This document shows, piece by piece, positions 4,311 to 25,743 of a stretch of 25,870 nucleotides of DNA. The stretch's first letter is position 1; every line of letters begins with the position of its first letter. The DNA comes from a virus: IMG/VR virus record IMGVR_UViG_3300020214_000105, positions 1-25,870 of that record, one strand, 5' to 3'. The notes beneath the pieces were generated by a model. The model did no database searches and had not been told where the DNA came from. It saw only the letters and a program-made list of their open reading frames with translations. Position numbers and translations under genes: made by a program.

Positions 4311-4342
4311 TTATTTATTCATTAGCCTTTCCTTTATTTATT
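4311..4342 (-). promoter_or_regulatory. Candidate late promoter (two ATAAATAA cores)
   Basis: On the minus strand GAATAAATAA spans 4320-4311, 19 bases before the ATG at 4291. A second copy, AATAAATAA, lies at 4342-4334 inside the end of the glycosyltransferase-like gene. Both match the T4 late core TATAAATA except at the first position, and the spacing matches the other copies in the window. Confidence 0.45.
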
Positions 4343-5358
4343 AGTTGCTCGACCTGATATGAATATATTGACAAATAGTCAGCTGGCGAGGCTTCTGCTA
4401 AGTATGTAAGCTGTTCAATTGCCTGCTCTACATTAATAAAGCTCATTGCCGGATGCAAAGTTTTGTCATTATATGAAATAGTTACTGTCCCAAACATAGC
4501 AGCTTCATATGCTCTAGCTGGCAAAAAACCGCTTTCGATATACAAATCCTTACTGATATTAATACTTGCTAGAGAATTTGCAAATGAGTTCCAAATCTCT
4601 AGTCGATTTGCTCGGTTAATGTGATTATAGACGCTAATTCCATCAACTGGCTTGCCAGCATGTGTTACTAAAAATTGACTTCCATCAAACATCGAATGAC
4701 CATCAAGTGCAGCTAATAGGTCATAGATGATTGGATTCTTAGCATGGCCTGCTTTATAATTCTTAAAATCTAGATTGCCATAATATAATACGTCAGTACT
4801 TCTCTTTGTTTTAAGAATTTTTTCAGAGTTAATCGCTAAACAGTCATACGCGAATCTTTTACCTATTCCAGGCATGTTAACCGATGGAATTCTTCTGGTA
4901 AATGAATACGGTTTTAAATTAACAAACGATTCTGGTAGAGACAAGTCTGTGTCAAGTACATGTACTGGAACCTGCATTGCAACGGCAACCTTTATCAAAT
5001 CTTCAAACTCTCTAGCATCAAATAGGCCTTTTGTTAATGTTGATAAATTTCTAAATCTAGCCTTTAAATATATCGCATTATATTCACGAGCCATAATTCG
5101 ATCAAGTGTCTCTTGAAAAGTAATATCATACTGGTCAATAAGTTCGCTAAAGTATTTGATATTTAACTGGCCAATCTCTCCATCTGGAAAAATCACAATA
5201 TCATTGGCAGTCGGTAAATATGAATAGAAGTCAATCTTACAATCGCCTTCAATATCTCTAATTGCGTCCAGTAAACCAATTTGATAAAATGAATGGCCTG
5301 GCACATCTTCAGTAAATATTCCAAGTTTACCAAAGTAGGCGTACAGGATTTTCTTCAT
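4315..5358 (-). CDS. Glycosyltransferase-like protein
   Basis: I choose the ATG at 5358 (MKKILYAYFGKLGIF), four bases after the upstream methyltransferase stop; the frame is open upstream, but an earlier ATG at 5418 would overlap that gene by 56 bases. The product is about 347 residues. The N-terminal half has alternating beta/alpha character with VHVLDTD. The C-terminal half contains LYIESGFLPARAYEAAMFGT followed by a short strand and a conserved-looking D, as in the C-terminal nucleotide-sugar-binding half of GT-B (CgeB/GT4-like) glycosyltransferases, where an E near a Gly-rich turn contacts the donor. Pairing with an FkbM methyltransferase suggests glycan synthesis or decoration of a virion protein, DNA or host surface. 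Donor and acceptor are unknown. Family assignment is from sequence pattern only. Confidence 0.6.
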   Translation of the reverse strand: MKKILYAYFGKLGIFTEDVPGHSFYQIGLLDAIRDIEGDCKIDFYSYLPTANDIVIFPDGEIGQLNIKYFSELIDQYDITFQETLDRIMAREYNAIYLKARFRNLSTLTKGLFDAREFEDLIKVAVAMQVPVHVLDTDLSLPESFVNLKPYSFTRRIPSVNMPGIGKRFAYDCLAINSEKILKTKRSTDVLYYGNLDFKNYKAGHAKNPIIYDLLAALDGHSMFDGSQFLVTHAGKPVDGISVYNHINRANRLEIWNSFANSLASINISKDLYIESGFLPARAYEAAMFGTVTISYNDKTLHPAMSFINVEQAIEQLTYLAEASPADYLSIYSYQVEQLINKGKANE

Positions 5359-5362
5359 TAGA

Positions 5363-6166
5363 TTAGATATTTTTAAAGCCAGCAAAGTGGGTAATAAAGT
5401 GCTTACCTGATGCGGCATTTTTGTTTACAAATACTCTATCGAAATTTGCATTGAATATTTCCATCATTTCTGCAAATTTGTTTTCTCGGTCTTGGCCAGT
5501 TAACCAAGAATAATGAAAATGATATTCGATAATGGCTAGTCTAATATTAGACCAATCGGTTATAGCCTTGACCATATCATATTCCATGCCCTCAATATCC
5601 ATTTTGATTGCAGTTACTCCCTTTAGCGCATCATTAATGTTAATAGCTTCTACGGTAGTTGTTGCTCTACCCTTTATTGGATGAACTGAGTGCTTTCCAG
5701 AATCTTGTGATAAAAAGAAGTCAACTGATTTTTGATCATCATGCACCAGCGCCTTTTCAATAATTTTACAACGATCATCTACTCCATTTAGCTTTATATT
5801 TCGCTGTGCAAAATCGACATTATTATGAAATGGCTCATAGCTATAAACCATCTTTACCTTTGGAAATTGGGTTAATAATCTAGTTGCAAAGATCCCAATA
5901 TGTCCGCCGGCGTCCAGCCAAACATCTTCTTGGTTAAGATCGTTTAGTGTTAATATTGACCCGTCTTCTGAAAAGTTAGAAGTAAAAAGAGGCTTGAAGT
6001 ATTCTCCGCCAGTTGGTTTAATTGAAATATTCTGAGAAACATTAAATTTAATTTCGTCTTCGGAACGAACTACAAATTCATACTCATGGTATTTAGTTTT
6101 CTTCTTAAATGTTCGTAAATCACCTGAAGCTAAAGCTTCTTCGTATGAAGACAAAACATTTGACAT
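5363..6166 (-). CDS. FkbM family SAM-dependent methyltransferase
   Basis: A 267-residue protein with the class I methyltransferase signature: motif I VWLDAGGHIGIF at ~82-93 (SAM-binding glycine loop), an acidic strand end YSYEPF at ~109-113 for the ribose contact, and the FkbM hallmark IKMDIEGMEY at ~187-196, followed by IIEYHFHY. FkbM enzymes usually O-methylate sugars or polyketides. It is transcribed just upstream of a glycosyltransferase-like gene (4-base gap), so the two probably modify the same glycan. The leader contains a TATAAT-type box (minus strand, near 6194-6199) not shared with most structural genes here, so the pair may be expressed under a different promoter. Full length for the family; no damage seen. 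Confidence 0.88.
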   Translation of the reverse strand: MSNVLSSYEEALASGDLRTFKKKTKYHEYEFVVRSEDEIKFNVSQNISIKPTGGEYFKPLFTSNFSEDGSILTLNDLNQEDVWLDAGGHIGIFATRLLTQFPKVKMVYSYEPFHNNVDFAQRNIKLNGVDDRCKIIEKALVHDDQKSVDFFLSQDSGKHSVHPIKGRATTTVEAININDALKGVTAIKMDIEGMEYDMVKAITDWSNIRLAIIEYHFHYSWLTGQDRENKFAEMMEIFNANFDRVFVNKNAASGKHFITHFAGFKNI

Positions 6167-17684: not shown

Positions 17685-19637
17685 TTATGAATTTCCGTAA
17701 AAATATCCCAACATTTTTTTATACTCAGAAATTGAATCAGGATCTAATACCGTCTTAGGTTTAGATCGGCTAATATCCGGAGTTGAATTTAGTTTACGAA
17801 ATTCATCAAAATCAAACCCAGAGTGAACAGGTAAGTACGCTTGATCTAAAATCTTTTCTCTAACTTCTCTTAAAAAAGACGGGTCGACTCTATCAAGTTC
17901 CTCGTTTGCAATTTCCCAAAAATTAGGAGATTCAAAAAAAGCTGAAGTATTTACACAAGTTATAGCTAAATCGTCATTGCCGCTTTGGCTTCGATATGAA
18001 CCGTTAGATGACTTACCAAAAGAACCAAGCTCGTGAATTGTTTTAAATTCGTTTGGTAAGATCCTATTCGTACTAGCAATGAACTTATATCGTTCACAAT
18101 ACTTAGCCTTATTCGTAATAGTCAATTTGAGTCCAGGCTTATAGCCTTTCATTGCTTCTGTGTGCTTAGAATGAATTAATTGACCAGGCCAATATTCTGG
18201 AGTATTTGTTATTCTGTCAAGTACATATTCTCCTTTATGATTAAGCTCAATTAAAAGCCTAACTTTTTCTGGATTAAAGATCGAGTAAGTCAATTTTTCA
18301 AGAGCATTACAAAACTGGTTAATGTCTTTAGTATTCGTTCGAAAGATAGCTACTTGAATTAGCCCAAAAATATCAGTTTCATCTTTAATAAATTCTTTAA
18401 CTCCGAATAGCAGTTTAATAGGCAATGGAGTAAACTTAAATATGTTGATTACTGAATAATCTTTACCTACTCCGTCTGCCGTATCAACTGATAGTATATA
18501 GTAGTTACCGTCATTTCTAATATCAGCTGGTGTGAGCTTTGCAAAGTTTGGATGTGCACTAAATTCATTAAATAAATCACCTAAAGAGGGATCCTGGCAC
18601 CACTCTGGTTCTTCATACTGAGTTCTGATATTGAATATTCGCTTAAGGTCTTTTGATGATAGTAATAGTTTGTCGGATGAAAAGAATTGGAGACCATATT
18701 CCTGATTAAAGTCTTCTTCTGAACCAAGGTTTGCAATGGTCATTTTCTTCCAATCGTCATCTCTACCTGGAACTTGCCACCAGTCTACTCGTAATGGCGT
18801 GTATGAATTTTTACCATCAATCGCATCCATGTAAATTTCATAAAATCGGTTCATTCCATTTGGTGTTGAGGTAATGATTACCTTTGAATTAGTCATTGAC
18901 GAAATTGTCGGATATATCGCTCGATAGAAGAAGGCAAGATATGCTCCATTGATGTGAGCAAATTCATCAATGTACAAGAGGTGAATTGTAAAACCAATAC
19001 CTGTATTTTTGGTTGTAGTTCGACCAATTAATCGACAACCATTATCGAATTTTAATGACAATACGTTATTTGAAATACAACCGGGCTTTAAAAAGAATGG
19101 CAAGTTTTCAAAGATTGATTTAATCTTATCGACTACTTCCTTTGTTGTTGATGCAACGTTTGCAACCGCTAATACATTTTTATCTGAATGAAATATTAAA
19201 AACCATGCAATGAATAATCCGGACATTATGGTTTTACCGATTTGTCTAGATGCCATTAGCACATTAAAACGATTAGCCTTAAATGAATCAATGATTTCTT
19301 CTTGATAATCCCTTAGCTGAATAATATCTATGCCGTTTTCTGTCATTACCTGACAGTACTTATTTGCAAAATAAATCGGATCCGCTTTACATCGAGTAAT
19401 TTCTTCTATTTCAGCTGGCGTGTACTCGAATACGATATTTGCCTTTTTCCAAGCAAGATCATTGTCTTTAAATGGAGAATTCTTAATTGATTTAATATCA
19501 ATCAATCCATTTTCAAAATCCTCAAGTAATTTTGTGATTTTGTCAGAGGTCCAAATTGCGTTTGAACCAGTCTCTTCATCCAGATTGGAAACTTTAATTC
19601 GACTGGAACCTCCGCTATTTGTTATAAAGTCTTTCAT
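17685..19637 (-). CDS. Terminase large subunit (T4 gp17-type)
   Basis: A 650-residue packaging motor with all expected motifs. ATPase: MASRQIGKT Walker A (~128-136), LLYIDEFAH Walker B with catalytic Glu (~220-228), IITSTPN coupling motif (~254-260). Nuclease: ILSVDTADGVGKDYS with first metal-binding Asp (~D385), LLIELNHKGE with the second acidic site (~E464), and SGNDDLAITC near residue 575-585 with the third. It hydrolyses ATP to drive DNA into the prohead and cuts the concatemer (headful packaging in T4). The ATG overlaps the upstream gene by 4 bases (ATGA), which may be the small subunit. Full length and intact; the best taxonomic marker in the window. Confidence 0.95.
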   Translation of the reverse strand: MKDFITNSGGSSRIKVSNLDEETGSNAIWTSDKITKLLEDFENGLIDIKSIKNSPFKDNDLAWKKANIVFEYTPAEIEEITRCKADPIYFANKYCQVMTENGIDIIQLRDYQEEIIDSFKANRFNVLMASRQIGKTIMSGLFIAWFLIFHSDKNVLAVANVASTTKEVVDKIKSIFENLPFFLKPGCISNNVLSLKFDNGCRLIGRTTTKNTGIGFTIHLLYIDEFAHINGAYLAFFYRAIYPTISSMTNSKVIITSTPNGMNRFYEIYMDAIDGKNSYTPLRVDWWQVPGRDDDWKKMTIANLGSEEDFNQEYGLQFFSSDKLLLSSKDLKRIFNIRTQYEEPEWCQDPSLGDLFNEFSAHPNFAKLTPADIRNDGNYYILSVDTADGVGKDYSVINIFKFTPLPIKLLFGVKEFIKDETDIFGLIQVAIFRTNTKDINQFCNALEKLTYSIFNPEKVRLLIELNHKGEYVLDRITNTPEYWPGQLIHSKHTEAMKGYKPGLKLTITNKAKYCERYKFIASTNRILPNEFKTIHELGSFGKSSNGSYRSQSGNDDLAITCVNTSAFFESPNFWEIANEELDRVDPSFLREVREKILDQAYLPVHSGFDFDEFRKLNSTPDISRSKPKTVLDPDSISEYKKMLGYFYGNS

Positions 19638-20639: not shown

Positions 20640-22349
20640 TTAAATTATATTATATGAGGTTATGCTCTTACGAGGTACTCGTTTTTTAATTTGAATATTT
20701 AGTGCTCCGAGTTTATCATCAGATAATCCGTCCGCATAGGTATTACCTTTACTGTCTTTCCAGCCGCCTCGAATTACCGGAAACTCATCCAGTTCAATAA
20801 TAATATCATTAAATTCGTCGAGACCAATAGCAGATGCCTTTGGATCCTTAGCTAGCGAAAGTTCATTCTTTTCTCCAAGAATACTAATATTTACTGAGTC
20901 GACGCCATTTATCTCTTCAATTATTTTAATTAAATCACTTTTTGGTACCCTGTCCTGTCTCTTTAGAGAAATGAAATATTTGCCTAGTGCGTCGGTAATG
21001 TCTGATTTAACTATTTCGAGTGCAATATCATCAAACGCGATGATACTCACAAATATCACATATTTTGAAATTTTTGGATCAACTATTTGAATGTCTGTCG
21101 AGATCAGCTTTGTACCTGACCTTTCAATATACTTAAGCAATTCATTCTTTTGAAAATCGCTCAATTTGAATTTTGAAACAGGCAGATTAAAATAGTCTTC
21201 TCCGCTCTTAAATAGCTTGCGAACATCAGGTACTAAGAATAAGTTGATCATTCTTGAATCCAGAATAGTTCCATTTGCATCTTGAGGCAAATAGACCTTA
21301 ATCGTTGAGAACATCTGCATTTTTCTAAGCAATACTTCATAATTATCAGTGTTGACTAGCGCAAAATTCTTTGATGCCTTTGGCGCAATTAACTTAGTCA
21401 ACTCAATACTTTCTGGATCAACTCCAAAGTTTGGAGGGCTGATTGTGAAAATATCAAAGTAGTCATTCATGTTGATTTCTTCGCCGGTTGGAGAAAAGCC
21501 AGTATCTTCAAAAATAAATTGGATTTGGCTTGGATCGTCGACTTTAATGTTACCAGCTGAACCATCCGTTGACAAGTACTCAACAATAATTTCTGAACCA
21601 ACCTCTGGAATTAGGCCAAAGTTTCCATTACCGAAAAATAGATCAATTCCATTTGTAATACCAGTTTTGCAGATAAAGCCCTTTGCTTTTCTTGGAATAT
21701 CTAATAGTGATTCATATTTTGTCCACTTTTCTCCATTAACGTAAACGTTGACAATAAAATTATCAATATAGAAGTTATTGGTAAAGCCCATTTGAAAAGA
21801 ATCGAACTTTTTACCTTTTGCAGTAAATGTTTGAGTTTCAACGATTCCCTGTCTAATACTAAAAATAGTTAGACTTGGGTCGCCAGTTAGAGAAAGACGA
21901 ACTTCGTCTTGTGGTAATTCAACAACATATGTTAAGCCGTTTTGAACGCACTTTAATCTAAATAAATTATTGATGATTGCTTTCGATGCCGGTAATTCAT
22001 CGGCATTTAGGTTAGGTTTTCTAATAACTCTTATCTGAGCAGTCGCTCCAATCGCTCTACTTGGATTGTGACCAGCAATTGCAGCTAATGAATAGATTGA
22101 GCTCGCCCTAGAAGCTTCATTTAAGTTTAATTCAGTTATTGCGTCTTCAATATAATAGAAGATGAGCTGACTTATGTTTTCAAAAACAATCAGCAATTGA
22201 CCATATGGCGAGGCTGCCGTAAAGATCGATTTACTCTGCTTAAAACGTTCCTGTAGGAACTGCAAAGATTCCGATAAAATATCGCGGATATTAATTCGAA
22301 GACTTGTAAATAATTTATAGTTCGAATTTTGACTAGACAATTCTGCCAT
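20640..22349 (-). CDS. Baseplate wedge protein, gp6/J-like
   Basis: A 569-residue protein with the outline of baseplate J / T4 gp6 proteins. The helical N-terminal ~100 residues (SLRINIRDILSESLQFLQER ... YYIEDAITELNLNEASRAS) hold the typical 'a-x-N-x-x-E-A-x-R-x-S-S-I-Y-S-L-A' segment that starts J-like domains. A long beta-rich middle follows, and the C-terminal ~190 residues include SDFQKNELLKYIERSGTKLI and the strand/helix repeat ISKYVIFVSIIAFDD..DITDALGKYFISLKRQD..ADLIKIIEEINGVDSV-like pattern (actual residues PKSDLIKIIEEINGVDSVNI). In T4, gp6 dimers form the wedge ring around the hub. A consensus ribosome binding site (AAGGAG) and a GATAAATAA core precede the ATG. Confidence 0.75.
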   Translation of the reverse strand: MAELSSQNSNYKLFTSLRINIRDILSESLQFLQERFKQSKSIFTAASPYGQLLIVFENISQLIFYYIEDAITELNLNEASRASSIYSLAAIAGHNPSRAIGATAQIRVIRKPNLNADELPASKAIINNLFRLKCVQNGLTYVVELPQDEVRLSLTGDPSLTIFSIRQGIVETQTFTAKGKKFDSFQMGFTNNFYIDNFIVNVYVNGEKWTKYESLLDIPRKAKGFICKTGITNGIDLFFGNGNFGLIPEVGSEIIVEYLSTDGSAGNIKVDDPSQIQFIFEDTGFSPTGEEINMNDYFDIFTISPPNFGVDPESIELTKLIAPKASKNFALVNTDNYEVLLRKMQMFSTIKVYLPQDANGTILDSRMINLFLVPDVRKLFKSGEDYFNLPVSKFKLSDFQKNELLKYIERSGTKLISTDIQIVDPKISKYVIFVSIIAFDDIALEIVKSDITDALGKYFISLKRQDRVPKSDLIKIIEEINGVDSVNISILGEKNELSLAKDPKASAIGLDEFNDIIIELDEFPVIRGGWKDSKGNTYADGLSDDKLGALNIQIKKRVPRKSITSYNII

Positions 22350-22411: not shown

Positions 22412-22432
22412 TATAAATAGAATTAGTATAAT
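22412..22432 (+). promoter_or_regulatory. Candidate tmRNA promoter region (TATAAATA and TATAAT)
   Basis: Plus strand: TATAAATA at 22412-22419 (T4 late core) and TATAAT at 22427-22432 (sigma-70-like -10), 24 and 11 bases before the tmRNA 5' end at 22444. The TATAAT copy lies in a 12-base sequence (22425-22436) also found before the FkbM methyltransferase. Either could be used; the mature 5' end would then be made by RNase P. Confidence 0.4.
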
Positions 22433-22443
22433 AGCTACTATAT

Positions 22444-22809
22444 GGGGGTGATTGGAATTGACGCGGGTTATTCCAGTATGCTCGCACGCCGAGGATGATG
22501 CTAAGACTCGTAAAAACGTATCAAACTGATAAGTGGCAACACTTCTATTTGGGATGTGATCAACGGCTTCGTTGGTGCTCCCGCAACCGAGGTTGAGTAC
22601 GCAATAGCGGCCTGACCAAGGCGGGTAGATAGGAACCTAGGAACAGAAGACTATCAACCAGGAGTCGGTTCATCCTTAACTGGACCAGCATGGTTGACTA
22701 GCTGACCCATAGCTAGATAGTTCGTCATATTAGAATAATGTGACTATGCGTGTGAACGAGAGTCTATTGAAAGGCCAAGCGGACAGGGGTTCGACTCCCC
22801 TCACCTCCA
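22444..22809 (+). ncRNA. ssrA: tmRNA (transfer-messenger RNA) with a 26-codon tag reading frame
   Basis: A one-piece tmRNA of about 366 bases. The acceptor stem GGGGGUG (22444-22450) pairs with CACCUCC (22802-22808), with a G-U at the third pair, the identity element for alanyl-tRNA synthetase; A22809 is the discriminator and CCA is not fully encoded. T arm: AGGGG/CCCCU (22785-22801) with TTCGACT loop. The 5' domain (GACGCGGG, then CACGCCGAG...ACTCGTAAAAA) aligns with the usual D-loop and first pseudoknot. The best resume codon is GGC (22535-22537), with T and A at -5 and -4 as in other tmRNAs. The tag begins GNTSIWDVINGFVG, ends TEVEYAIAA and stops at TGA 22613-22615. It rescues stalled ribosomes and tags the peptide for degradation; the terminal AIAA replaces the usual ALAA. 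Confidence 0.93.
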
Positions 22810-22812
22810 CTG

Positions 22813-22842
22813 AAAACGCCAGGGTTATTGCCTGGCGTTTTT
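22813..22842 (+). terminator. Intrinsic terminator of the tmRNA
   Basis: AAAACGCCAGG (22813-22823) pairs with CCTGGCGTTTT (22831-22841), with a 7-base loop, followed by T's. It begins four bases after the tmRNA 3' end, so it sets the primary transcript end and separates the tmRNA from the gene at 22878. Confidence 0.9.
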
Positions 22843-22877
22843 ATTAAACTATACTGTAAAAATAAGTATAAACTTGT

Positions 22878-23339
22878 ATGTTGGGAGTATTCAGAAAATT
22901 AGGTGATCACACTATTGTTTCAGACTTGGGAAGCTACGTTAAGGATCAAATTAGTGCTAATCGTGATGTAAAGATTTATGTTGGGTCTGATTCTCACAAC
23001 ACAACAACTGAAACTATATTGGCGACAGTTATCGTCATTCACTATGGAAATAGTGGAGCCCATGTTCTTTATAATAAAAGTTCAGTTCCAATTATTGTGG
23101 ATAGCTTTACCAGACTGTGGTTTGAAGTTACGTCGTCTGTCAATAGCGCAAGGTTTTTAAAAGAGGAGGGCAAGGTCCTGGTAAACTATGTGGACCTTGA
23201 TCTAAATAACGATCCTAGATATAAGAGCAATTCAATTCTTAGAGCTGCACTAGGTTACACTGAAAGCATGGGATTTAAAGCTCGCTGGAAGCCGTTTAGC
23301 CCGTTCTCTATTCCAATTGCAAATTTTATTTGTCGATAA
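22878..23339 (+). CDS. YkuK-like RNase H-fold protein
   Basis: A 153-residue protein. The stretch VKIYVGSDSHNTTTETILAT (~30-49) matches the first beta hairpin of the YkuK (DUF458) group of RNase H-fold proteins, with Asp in GSDS as a likely metal ligand. VNYVDLDLNNDPRYKSNSIL (~101-120) and GYTESMGFKARWKPFSPFSI (~125-144) match its later conserved segments (Lys-Ser and Lys-Pro-Phe-Ser). Members are predicted nucleases with no settled role. It lies on the plus strand 36 bases downstream of the tmRNA terminator and is followed by a gene 10 bases away. No clear ribosome binding site. Catalytic competence is not certain: I see two of the expected acidic clusters only. Confidence 0.65.
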   Translation: MLGVFRKLGDHTIVSDLGSYVKDQISANRDVKIYVGSDSHNTTTETILATVIVIHYGNSGAHVLYNKSSVPIIVDSFTRLWFEVTSSVNSARFLKEEGKVLVNYVDLDLNNDPRYKSNSILRAALGYTESMGFKARWKPFSPFSIPIANFICR

Positions 23340-23348
23340 ATAGATTAT

Positions 23349-24092
23349 ATGAAGAATCTCAACACAGACGATATCTTTCTTAGAAATTTAACGATCGCTA
23401 TCCTAGATCTGCTAAATGGTGAAACTCAAATCGATTTAACCAGTAATAATATTATACAAAGTTACTCAGTGCCTTTCTTTTATAACTATGGTACCGATGA
23501 GGGCTTTTTAAAGGATTTTTATATTGGGCTACCGGATAGCTGTAGAGTTCCAGTGGCAGAAGGTACATATGATATTGTACCCAGAGGCATTGTTACGCTA
23601 AGCAGTTTTCAGGTAAAAGCTGGCGACATTACTAATAAATTTGTTCGAGGAAATTTTGCAGAAGATGGCATTTCCGCAAATGGTGAAATTACCTATGTTC
23701 CAAAGAGTGCACTGCTCTATTCGCTACCAATGCAGGTCAAATTTGATATTAAAGTAATCGTTGACAATTTAAATAAGGCATTTAAGGTGGCAGAAGACCT
23801 ACTTGACCTAAATTATTCAAATCGAGTTGTCTATTTTCAATATAAGGGCGTTCGTATTCCGGCACAAATTCAGTTTCCAGAAAGCGAATCAATTGAAAAG
23901 AGCTATAAGTTTACCTATTCTGACAATAATAAGCTAAATGTGAATTTGTCAGTTAATGTTGAGACATACTTCCCAAGCTTTGAAAAATCATCTACGAGGA
24001 ATCGGGCTAATGTGATGGATAAGATATTAGTTGCACACAAAGATCCCAACGGGGGTGTTCTAAAGAGTGACTGGACAGACCAGAATACTTAA
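23349..24092 (+). CDS. Probable tail terminator/sheath stabiliser (T4 gp15-like)
   Basis: A 247-residue beta-rich protein. The segment from PRGIVTLSSFQVKAGDITNK through ANGEITYVPKSALLYSLPMQ, VKFDIKVIVDNLNKAFKVAE and VVYFQYKGVRIPAQIQFP has the order of T4 gp15-type tail completion proteins: a 'P-R-G' start, a 'Y-x-P-x-P' turn, then 'V-K-x-D-I-x-V-x-x-x-N' and a helix followed by a strand pair. In T4 gp15 caps the tail tube and sheath and joins the neck. Plus strand, 10 bases after the nuclease gene, converging on the tail-tube gene with a 4-base overlap of stops. Medium confidence; gp3 or another neck protein are alternatives. Confidence 0.5.
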   Translation: MKNLNTDDIFLRNLTIAILDLLNGETQIDLTSNNIIQSYSVPFFYNYGTDEGFLKDFYIGLPDSCRVPVAEGTYDIVPRGIVTLSSFQVKAGDITNKFVRGNFAEDGISANGEITYVPKSALLYSLPMQVKFDIKVIVDNLNKAFKVAEDLLDLNYSNRVVYFQYKGVRIPAQIQFPESESIEKSYKFTYSDNNKLNVNLSVNVETYFPSFEKSSTRNRANVMDKILVAHKDPNGGVLKSDWTDQNT

Positions 24093-25338: not shown

Positions 25339-25743
25339 TTACTCTTCAGGAGCTTCGGTCGTGGTAGTAGTCGTAGCTGCGGTAGTCGTAGCTTCGGTAG
25401 TCGTAGCTTCGGTAGTCGTAGCTGCGGTAGTCGTAGCTTCGGTAGTCGTAGTAGTTGGAGGCAGCGGTAGCGTAGTAGTTGGGGCTACCCAAGTTGTATC
25501 ACGAACAAAATCTTCTTTTGTAAGGATTGTATCGATTAGAAATAGATCGTCGGTTCCCCAATCTTCCAATTCTTCAGGTGTCAGATTAACAACTTTTGTT
25601 GTAAAGTAATCACCATCTTCCTCATAAAGGTTAAATGTGCACGAAGCATTCTTTGAAAAAAGGTCATAGTGCATTAAACGAATACCAGCAAAAACAGCAG
25701 TCTTACCAAAACCAGTTACTGGTTGAATTCTAATTTTTAACAT
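25339..25743 (-). CDS. Small virion-type protein with Thr-rich repeat tail
   Basis: A 134-residue protein. The N-terminal ~85 residues are a compact alpha/beta domain (MLKIRIQPVTGFGKTAVFAG..., LYEEDGDYFTTKVVNLTPEE). The last ~45 residues are almost only Thr, Ala, Glu and Pro (APTTTLPLPPTTTTTEATTT, then repeats of AATTT/EATTT to the end). Such Thr-rich tails occur in phage and Bacteroidota surface proteins and may act as a flexible or glycosylated stalk. It forms its own transcription unit with a GATAAATAA core 18 bases upstream and a terminator downstream. Function not recognised. Confidence 0.75.
   Translation of the reverse strand: MLKIRIQPVTGFGKTAVFAGIRLMHYDLFSKNASCTFNLYEEDGDYFTTKVVNLTPEELEDWGTDDLFLIDTILTKEDFVRDTTWVAPTTTLPLPPTTTTTEATTTAATTTEATTTEATTTAATTTTTTEAPEE
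25367..25450. repeat. 15-bp tandem repeat (about 5.6 copies) encoding the Thr-rich tail
   Basis: The unit GTAGTCGTAGCTKCG (K = T or G) repeats from 25367 to 25450 on the plus strand. On the coding (minus) strand each unit encodes five residues, AATTT or EATTT. Copies differ only at the K position, so copy number may vary between strains. Confidence 0.85.

Follow-up and report, generated by a model that had tools for sequence, protein, structure and literature searches.

A probably functional tmRNA with a long, conserved tag in a jumbo myovirus lineage

Introduction

A tmRNA gene has been found in 402 of 18,146 phage genomes (PMC9004378), and both a tmRNA and SmpB have been reported for the huge phages of Al-Shayeb et al. 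(PMC7162821). The purpose of phage tmRNAs is debated; the proposed roles are unproven and few cases have been examined closely. The question arises again with the IMG/VR virus record IMGVR_UViG_3300020214_000105 (25,870 bases, the whole stretch that was analysed, called the window in the following). A first-pass annotation had noticed a tmRNA gene with an unusually long tag of 26 codons and had proposed that such a tag could have a protease preference of its own or hold a particular fold. Is this a working tmRNA, and what could the long tag be for?

Results

The tmRNA gene and its surroundings

The tmRNA gene lies in a T4-type structural gene cluster with a terminase large subunit, PhoH, a baseplate wedge protein, a tail tube protein and a sigma factor, which agrees with the T4-like surroundings described before. 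The first-pass annotation had put the tmRNA on the strand opposite to its flanks. This is true for the left neighbour, but the two open reading frames on the right are encoded on the same strand as the tmRNA:

17685..19637, minus strand, terminase large subunit (PHROG 5989, 2.1e-51), the query used to find relatives
20640..22349, minus strand, baseplate wedge gene, left neighbour, divergent (PHROG 219, 4e-25)
22444..22810, plus strand, one-piece tmRNA (ssrA), 367 nt (ARAGORN; Rfam RF00023)
22878..23339, plus strand, RNase H-like protein, right neighbour directly 3' of the tmRNA (PF04308, 4e-18)
23349..24092, plus strand, second open reading frame to the right of the tmRNA

The structural cluster further contains an FkbM-type methyltransferase gene followed by a 367 aa gene without assignment (5363-6166 and 4315-5418). 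At 25339-25743 a small protein with a low-complexity TTTT/EATT tail is encoded; a similar T/A-rich repeat protein adjoins ClpP in the relative G002 (L460).

Two independent programs, ARAGORN and the Rfam covariance model RF00023, recognized a complete tmRNA. The Rfam match (22444-22812) reaches 103.3 bits at a cut-off of 47 and covers model positions 1-374 of 374. This score is lower than that of nearly all cellular Bacteroidota tmRNAs (105-198 bits), a point against a working tmRNA. The 3' CCA is not encoded in the window, where the gene ends A-C-TG; some relatives encode it.

For the core structure 15 distinct tmRNAs of the family were aligned and the pairs counted in the acceptor stem, P2, pseudoknot 1 and the T stem:

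22444..22450, plus strand, 5' strand of the acceptor stem (partner 22802-22808) with the G3-U70 pair (pair counts)
22490..22522, plus strand, pseudoknot 1 with the helices CGAG/CTCG and GATGC/GTATC (pair counts; motif scan of viral contigs)
22785..22801, plus strand, T arm with a five-pair stem and compensatory changes (pair counts)

The acceptor stem of the window tmRNA reads GGGGGTG/CACCTCC. Its third pair, the alanine identity pair G3-U70, is invariant in all 15 homologues, and pairs 5 and 7 are changed on both sides among them. Both helices of pseudoknot 1 are kept in 15/15 sequences, one pair showing a G-U change, and three pairs of the T stem have both-sided changes. Thus all three elements read from the single sequence, the acceptor stem with its G-U pair, the T arm and the first pseudoknot, are present and kept. 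Over the whole core 99.8% of the cells are paired, with 8 pairs showing both-sided changes and 36 cells changed on both sides; the compensatory changes fall in the acceptor, P2 and T stems. None of 500 shuffles reached the observed pairing or covariation score, and slid versions did not come close either. Since G3-U70 is invariant and both-sided changes occur in the acceptor and T stems, the alignment argues that the window tmRNA is a maintained RNA and not a relic. The downstream region of pseudoknots 2-4 differs in sequence among the relatives and is shorter than in Bacteroidota.

The tag reading frame is under selection

22535..22615, plus strand, tag open reading frame, 26 codons GNTSIWDVINGFVGAPATEVEYAIAA plus TGA (ARAGORN; resume context; conservation and purifying selection)

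The resume codon GGC is located at 22535-22537 and the stop codon TGA at 22613; the tag ends with EYAIAA. The resume context ATAAGT|GGC matches that of cellular Bacteroidota tmRNAs, for example ATAAGT|GCT and TTAAAT|GGC. Together with the tag reported by ARAGORN and the frame-specific selection described below, this confirms the resume codon, tag length and tag end that had been proposed.

The pseudoknot-1 motif of the tmRNA family was found in 48 IMG/VR stretches. From these stretches, the window and L052 (a repeat of one of the contigs) 49 complete tags were read. They reduce to eight different peptides; six have 24 aa and two have 26 aa. Each starts with GNT, has W at position 6 and keeps N, V, P and E. 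With the alanine that would precede them, two of the tag forms read A+GNTSIWDVINGFVGAPATEVEYAIAA and A+GNTNFWSLVNESVNAPVTEELLAA. For the six different 24-codon tags, compared as nucleotide sequences, the tag frame has a pN/pS of 0.26 vs 0.88 and 1.97 in the other two frames, and 11 of the 20 variable columns are third codon positions. Because pN/pS is lowest in the tag frame and third positions account for so many of the variable columns, the tag peptide is under purifying selection, and the long tag is by the same sequence comparison not an annotation slip. Across the lineage the tags end with AIAA, AVAA or LLAA, the final two residues always being alanine. These ends and the frame-specific selection suggest that the frame is translated and carries a hydrophobic degradation signal at its end. 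The cellular tag nearest in form is GNTQYAMAA, and the phage tag looks as if about 17 residues had been inserted between its GNT and its end.

Other reading frames from the resume region (7-8 or 19 codons, by eye) have neither a hydrophobic end nor frame-specific selection and were rejected. The tag also resembles the terminase segment NFWELVNE, but over a short stretch and weakly (E 0.018), which was treated as chance.

How rare is the tag length? Tags of 9-12 aa were found in 32 cellular tmRNAs, a set made up of the phylum of one Bacteroidota genome and two others and nearly all Bacteroidota, whereas the phage lineage has 24-26 aa; the comparison with candidate hosts and related phages therefore bears out a long, lineage-specific tag. 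Among bacterial contigs of mixed phyla 2/65 have tags of at least 20 aa, and among viral contigs with a tmRNA 10/77 have tags of 21-29 aa (Fisher p 0.04), some of these 77 probably being host genes at prophage sites. Other viral tmRNAs (L100, L067, L117, L124, L178) carry tags of 23-29 aa, e.g. GKNIPVNLLAQGQVGHSNFAYAG, which makes it probable that viruses evolved long tags on more than one occasion. The ssrA tag of Mesoplasma florum, AANKNEENTNEVPTFMLNAGQANYAFA, has the same total length and is read by the organism's own Lon protease (PMC9097571). The tag of the window is accordingly rare but not unique in its length, and its AIAA end, first regarded as unusual, belongs to a type (AIAA/AVAA) that is already known.

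A hairpin inside the tag frame and a shortened 3' region

22551..22581, plus strand, predicted hairpin within the tag open reading frame, GGG...CCC outer and ATCAAC/GTTGGT inner (alignment fold; pair counts)

All cells of this hairpin are paired in the 15 sequences, and two both-sided changes were counted, both of which sit on the split between the 26-aa and the 24-aa clades. The most variable residues of the region form the loop. Folding of single sequences gave no strong signal (z -1.5 to 0.25). The alignment model is thus suggestive of a hairpin within the tag frame, and the idea of a particular fold receives modest support for the RNA only.

The phage gene is as long as its cellular counterparts (367 nt vs a median of 368 nt in the 32 cellular tmRNAs), yet only 195 nt follow the stop codon vs 224-273 in the cellular set. 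L365 and L391 share their tag with L373 and L386 but differ from them in the stretch that leads from the tag to the 3' half. Because the region behind an identical tag differs in this way, the 3' pseudoknot domain seems to have been swapped between phages while pseudoknot 1, the tag and the tRNA-like domain stayed.

Relatives encode SmpB, ClpP and a ClpC-like unfoldase

Relatives with companion genes span 90-271 kb; the searches covered the 253-271 kb ones almost completely. The following genes were found:

G057:C1:108268-108678; G058-G060; G063:C1:92121-92522; G064, SmpB genes (L403-L406, L457)
G057:C1:73867-74394 (L459) and G002:C1:133036-133563 (L460), ClpP genes near the tRNA cluster
G057:C1:46573-48108 (L465), G002 (L461) and G003 (L462), ClpC-like unfoldase with UVR motif and IGF loop and without N-domain

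SmpB (PF01668) is present in six relatives, G057-G060, G063 and G064, with 150-152 bits (cut-off 27) over the full-length domain; it is also above the NCBIfam SmpB cut-off. Four of the carriers are genomes of about 270 kb; the others are contigs of 128 and 91 kb. On the 128 kb contig G063 tmRNA, SmpB and ClpP lie together. SmpB could not be detected in G002 and G003 (253 kb), which speaks against a working tmRNA. G002 keeps homologues of two genes that neighbour SmpB elsewhere, SmpB itself being absent; at L403 the SmpB gene adjoins a lysozyme-like gene.

ClpP is encoded by G057, G058 and G002 (196.5 bits to PF00574). It was not found in G003, again a point against a working tmRNA. The phage protein scores 254 bits to NF011091, below the cut-off of 361, vs 70-75 bits to head-protease models, and its catalytic regions align at the Ser-His-Asp positions; by these comparisons it is of the ClpP type and distinct from the ClpP-like head proteases. 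A double-AAA ATPase of 657-663 aa was found in G057, G058, G059, G002 and G003. Its best solved relative is ClpC, and it has a UVR motif and an IGF loop at the ClpP-binding position. The N-domain is absent and the NCBIfam ClpA/ClpB cut-offs are not reached. Far from the tmRNA, 24 tRNA genes are located in G002 (L346-L358) and 26 in G057 (L407-L420). These sets hold nearly one tRNA per amino acid; tRNA-Val was not found in G002.

The window's own clade is represented by fragments of up to about 31 kb. The ClpP and SmpB scans of viral contigs hit no contig of this clade, and none of SmpB, ClpP and ClpC was found on any of its fragments (<=31 kb), a further point against a working tmRNA.

Promoter-like motifs and a putative terminator

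22412..22419, plus strand, TATAAATA, T4-late-promoter-like motif 31 nt upstream of the tmRNA (enrichment; kept in relatives)
22425..22433, plus strand, AGTATAATA, second phage promoter-like motif before the tmRNA (enrichment in the relatives' genomes)
22816..22844, plus strand, terminator-like hairpin ACGCCAGG/CCTGGCGT (22816-22838) followed by the T run TTTTTATT (read by eye)

The window has 16 copies of ATAAATA, a sequence similar to the T4 late promoter; for 11 of them a correctly oriented gene starts no more than 70 nt further downstream, with 0.54 expected. At the site upstream of the tmRNA the relatives hold TATAAATA or GATAAATA. The second motif, AGTATAATA, is present in 22 copies in each of two relatives (genomes of 253-271 kb) vs 3.3 and 4.5 expected, and 19 of 22 copies are intergenic. 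Neither motif was flagged by a sigma-70 scan. In L346-L358 (G002) and L407-L420 (G057) AGTATAATA often lies 5-10 nt before a start codon. The clpP gene of G002 and the clpC gene of G057 each follow a copy of it immediately. As some start regions of ClpP, ClpC and SmpB contain the motif and others do not, a common control of the tmRNA and the Clp and SmpB genes is suggestive only. If AGTATAATA were an early or middle promoter, the tmRNA would be made throughout infection.

The terminator ascribed to the tmRNA gene is visible by eye as a hairpin with a T run, and in relatives the corresponding position 3' of the tmRNA is taken by other hairpins, likewise with T runs behind them; the automatic terminator scan, on the other hand, gave this hairpin no score. 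The claim of an own terminator is thus upheld in part.

The probable host and the origin of the gene

Among the named phages with a related terminase are those of Tenacibaculum and Prevotella. No tmRNA match was obtained for PTm1 and pT24 (both from Tenacibaculum) or for PAU, whose terminases are among the closest named ones. In the Prevotella phage Lak-B1 (L306, MK250020.1 414201-414610) a tmRNA match of 47.3 bits lies just above the Rfam cut-off and is missed by ARAGORN. The phage SmpB nests in a clade of five Bacteroidota SmpBs (support 100/98), and in these five genomes the tmRNA tags start with G (GNTQYAMAA, GDYNYAMAA, GEENYALAA, GDYSYAMAA and GEDNYALAA). On account of the terminase relatives, the SmpB clade, the G-starting tags and the resume context the host of the window phage is probably a member of the Bacteroidota, a placement at the level of the phylum, and probably a freshwater one; a host from Flavobacterium would agree with this.

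An identical tmRNA in a host would have made the gene a simple capture. In 394 Bacteroidota genomes there was no near-identical tmRNA; what recurred was a match of about 30-47 nt at the 3' end, made up of T arm and acceptor. One Bacteroidota genome also matched the tag region over 32 nt, but within a glycosyltransferase gene, and this was put down to chance. A DNA search of a phage collection gave only T-arm matches among the matches listed. Because only the T-arm/acceptor end matches systematically, a recent capture from the host is unlikely. The tmRNA has been retained among phages with a 27% difference between their terminases.

Discussion

We consider it probable, at roughly two in three, that the gene is a working tmRNA of a jumbo myovirus lineage which rescues stalled ribosomes and adds a phage-specific degradation tag. 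The RNA family and its structure, the selected tag frame, the conservation in the lineage, the promoter-like motifs and the SmpB, ClpP and ClpC genes of relatives are read from sequence; charging, SmpB binding, tagging, degradation, the timing of expression and the host are what we infer. The tmRNA would be charged with alanine by way of G3-U70 and bound by SmpB, either that of the host or, in some relatives, the phage's own. The charged molecule would enter ribosomes stalled on broken mRNA, and alanine plus the 26-residue tag would be added; the tag end (AIAA here, in relatives AVAA or LLAA) would serve as a Clp-type degradation signal. In this way stalled ribosomes would be released and their incomplete products degraded. 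The phage likely keeps the tmRNA and its own tRNA set so that ribosomes stay available while mRNAs and tRNAs are cut during infection. The tRNAs, SmpB and the Clp parts would fit a phage that sustains translation and protein turnover amid the destruction of host RNA. In the mycobacteriophage Wildcat the tmRNA is the most highly expressed lytic gene (PMC7474061).

Since relatives encode ClpP and a ClpC-like unfoldase, a special protease preference of the long tag has become more plausible. In its full form, a largely self-sufficient tag-and-destroy pathway of tmRNA, SmpB, ClpC-like unfoldase and ClpP with the long tag matched to the phage protease, this seems doubtful to us. We likewise think it unlikely that the system is orthogonal, with the phage ClpC-ClpP reading the long tag and host ClpXP reading it poorly, so that the phage would control destruction and recycle amino acids. 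The clpP of G002 and the clpC of G057 do start behind the same AGTATAATA as the tmRNA, SmpB accompanies ClpP and ClpC in part of the relatives, and M. florum illustrates that a tag of this length can suit a different protease (PMC9097571). However, the ends of the phage tags look like those that ClpXP ordinarily recognizes, the N-domain, by which adaptors are usually bound, is missing from the phage ClpC, and the Clp genes are known from the larger relatives and not from the window's own clade with its short fragments. The tag length might instead be mainly a matter of the RNA, the hairpin in the frame taking over from a part of the 3' pseudoknot domain, which is shortened, with the extra residues passive. 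The ordinary total length combined with the short region after the stop codon, the pairs kept in all 15 sequences and the variable loop would agree with such a replacement, which we nevertheless regard as improbable: both double-sided changes fall on one branch, the single-sequence folds are weak, and it is the peptide frame with its invariant W6 that is most strongly selected.

Two further readings deny the gene a rescue function. Phage DS6A has the tRNA-like domain only, and such molecules inhibit tmRNA (PMC4131195); the RNA of the window could in the same way act as a decoy, sequestering the SmpB of the host so that host trans-translation is blocked and not carried out. This is very unlikely, given that selection has kept the tag frame, the resume site and pseudoknot 1 intact and that some relatives supply their own SmpB. 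A captured host ssrA or an attachment-site remnant without function, as probably represented by many viral contigs with host-like tags (ANDENYALAA), is extremely unlikely here, for the match to Bacteroidota genomes is limited to the T-arm/acceptor end, and the gene is kept with intact, selected tag frames and its own promoter-like motifs across divergent phages.

Neither tmRNAs in phages nor tags as long as these are new. The one-piece tmRNA of Bacteroidota (RF00023; tags GNTQYAMAA, GNSYEYAMAA, GENNYALAA) shares with the tmRNA of the window the G3-U70 acceptor, the T arm, pseudoknot 1, the resume context TAANT|GGC, the G at the tag start and the YAxAA end, but differs in tag codons (9-12 vs 24-26) and in its longer region after the stop codon; the predicted hairpin inside the frame belongs to the phage tmRNA. 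Complete tmRNAs in phage genomes, equally unlike a prophage attachment site, are known from Bxz1-like mycobacteriophages, Wildcat, Bacillus phage G, Melnitz and Streptomyces phage Wakanda (PMC4131195, PMC9004378, PMC7474061). These phages are of different lineages; the Melnitz type is two-piece and the Wakanda tag has 11 aa. For none of them is the company of SmpB and ClpP/ClpC reported in the parts of these sources available to us. M. florum likewise has a long tag matched to another protease, as may be the case here, but it is a cellular system without sequence similarity and with Lon instead of Clp (PMC9097571). The moraphages, a lineage of freshwater Bacteroidota jumbo phages described in 2025, also have a T4-type core, PhoH, a sigma factor and a core Clp ATPase; the likeness is one of gene content only, and their description does not mention tmRNA or SmpB (PMC12619734). 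The Sinorhizobium jumbo phage AP-J-162 combines a tmRNA, many tRNAs and several Clp genes, but its host is alphaproteobacterial, and the accessible part of its description gives neither the tag nor SmpB (PMC11242549). In the open-access literature searched we found no description of a conserved tag family of 24-26 aa in the company of SmpB, ClpP and a ClpC-like unfoldase.

A whole phage lineage thus keeps a tag two to three times as long as that of its likely hosts and selected as a peptide. With the binding protein and the Clp protease encoded by relatives, it can be tested directly whether the phage tag leads to the phage protease. If it does, this would be a viral takeover of ribosome rescue in which the products are routed to a viral protease, and tag and protease would make a new ready-made degradation pair.
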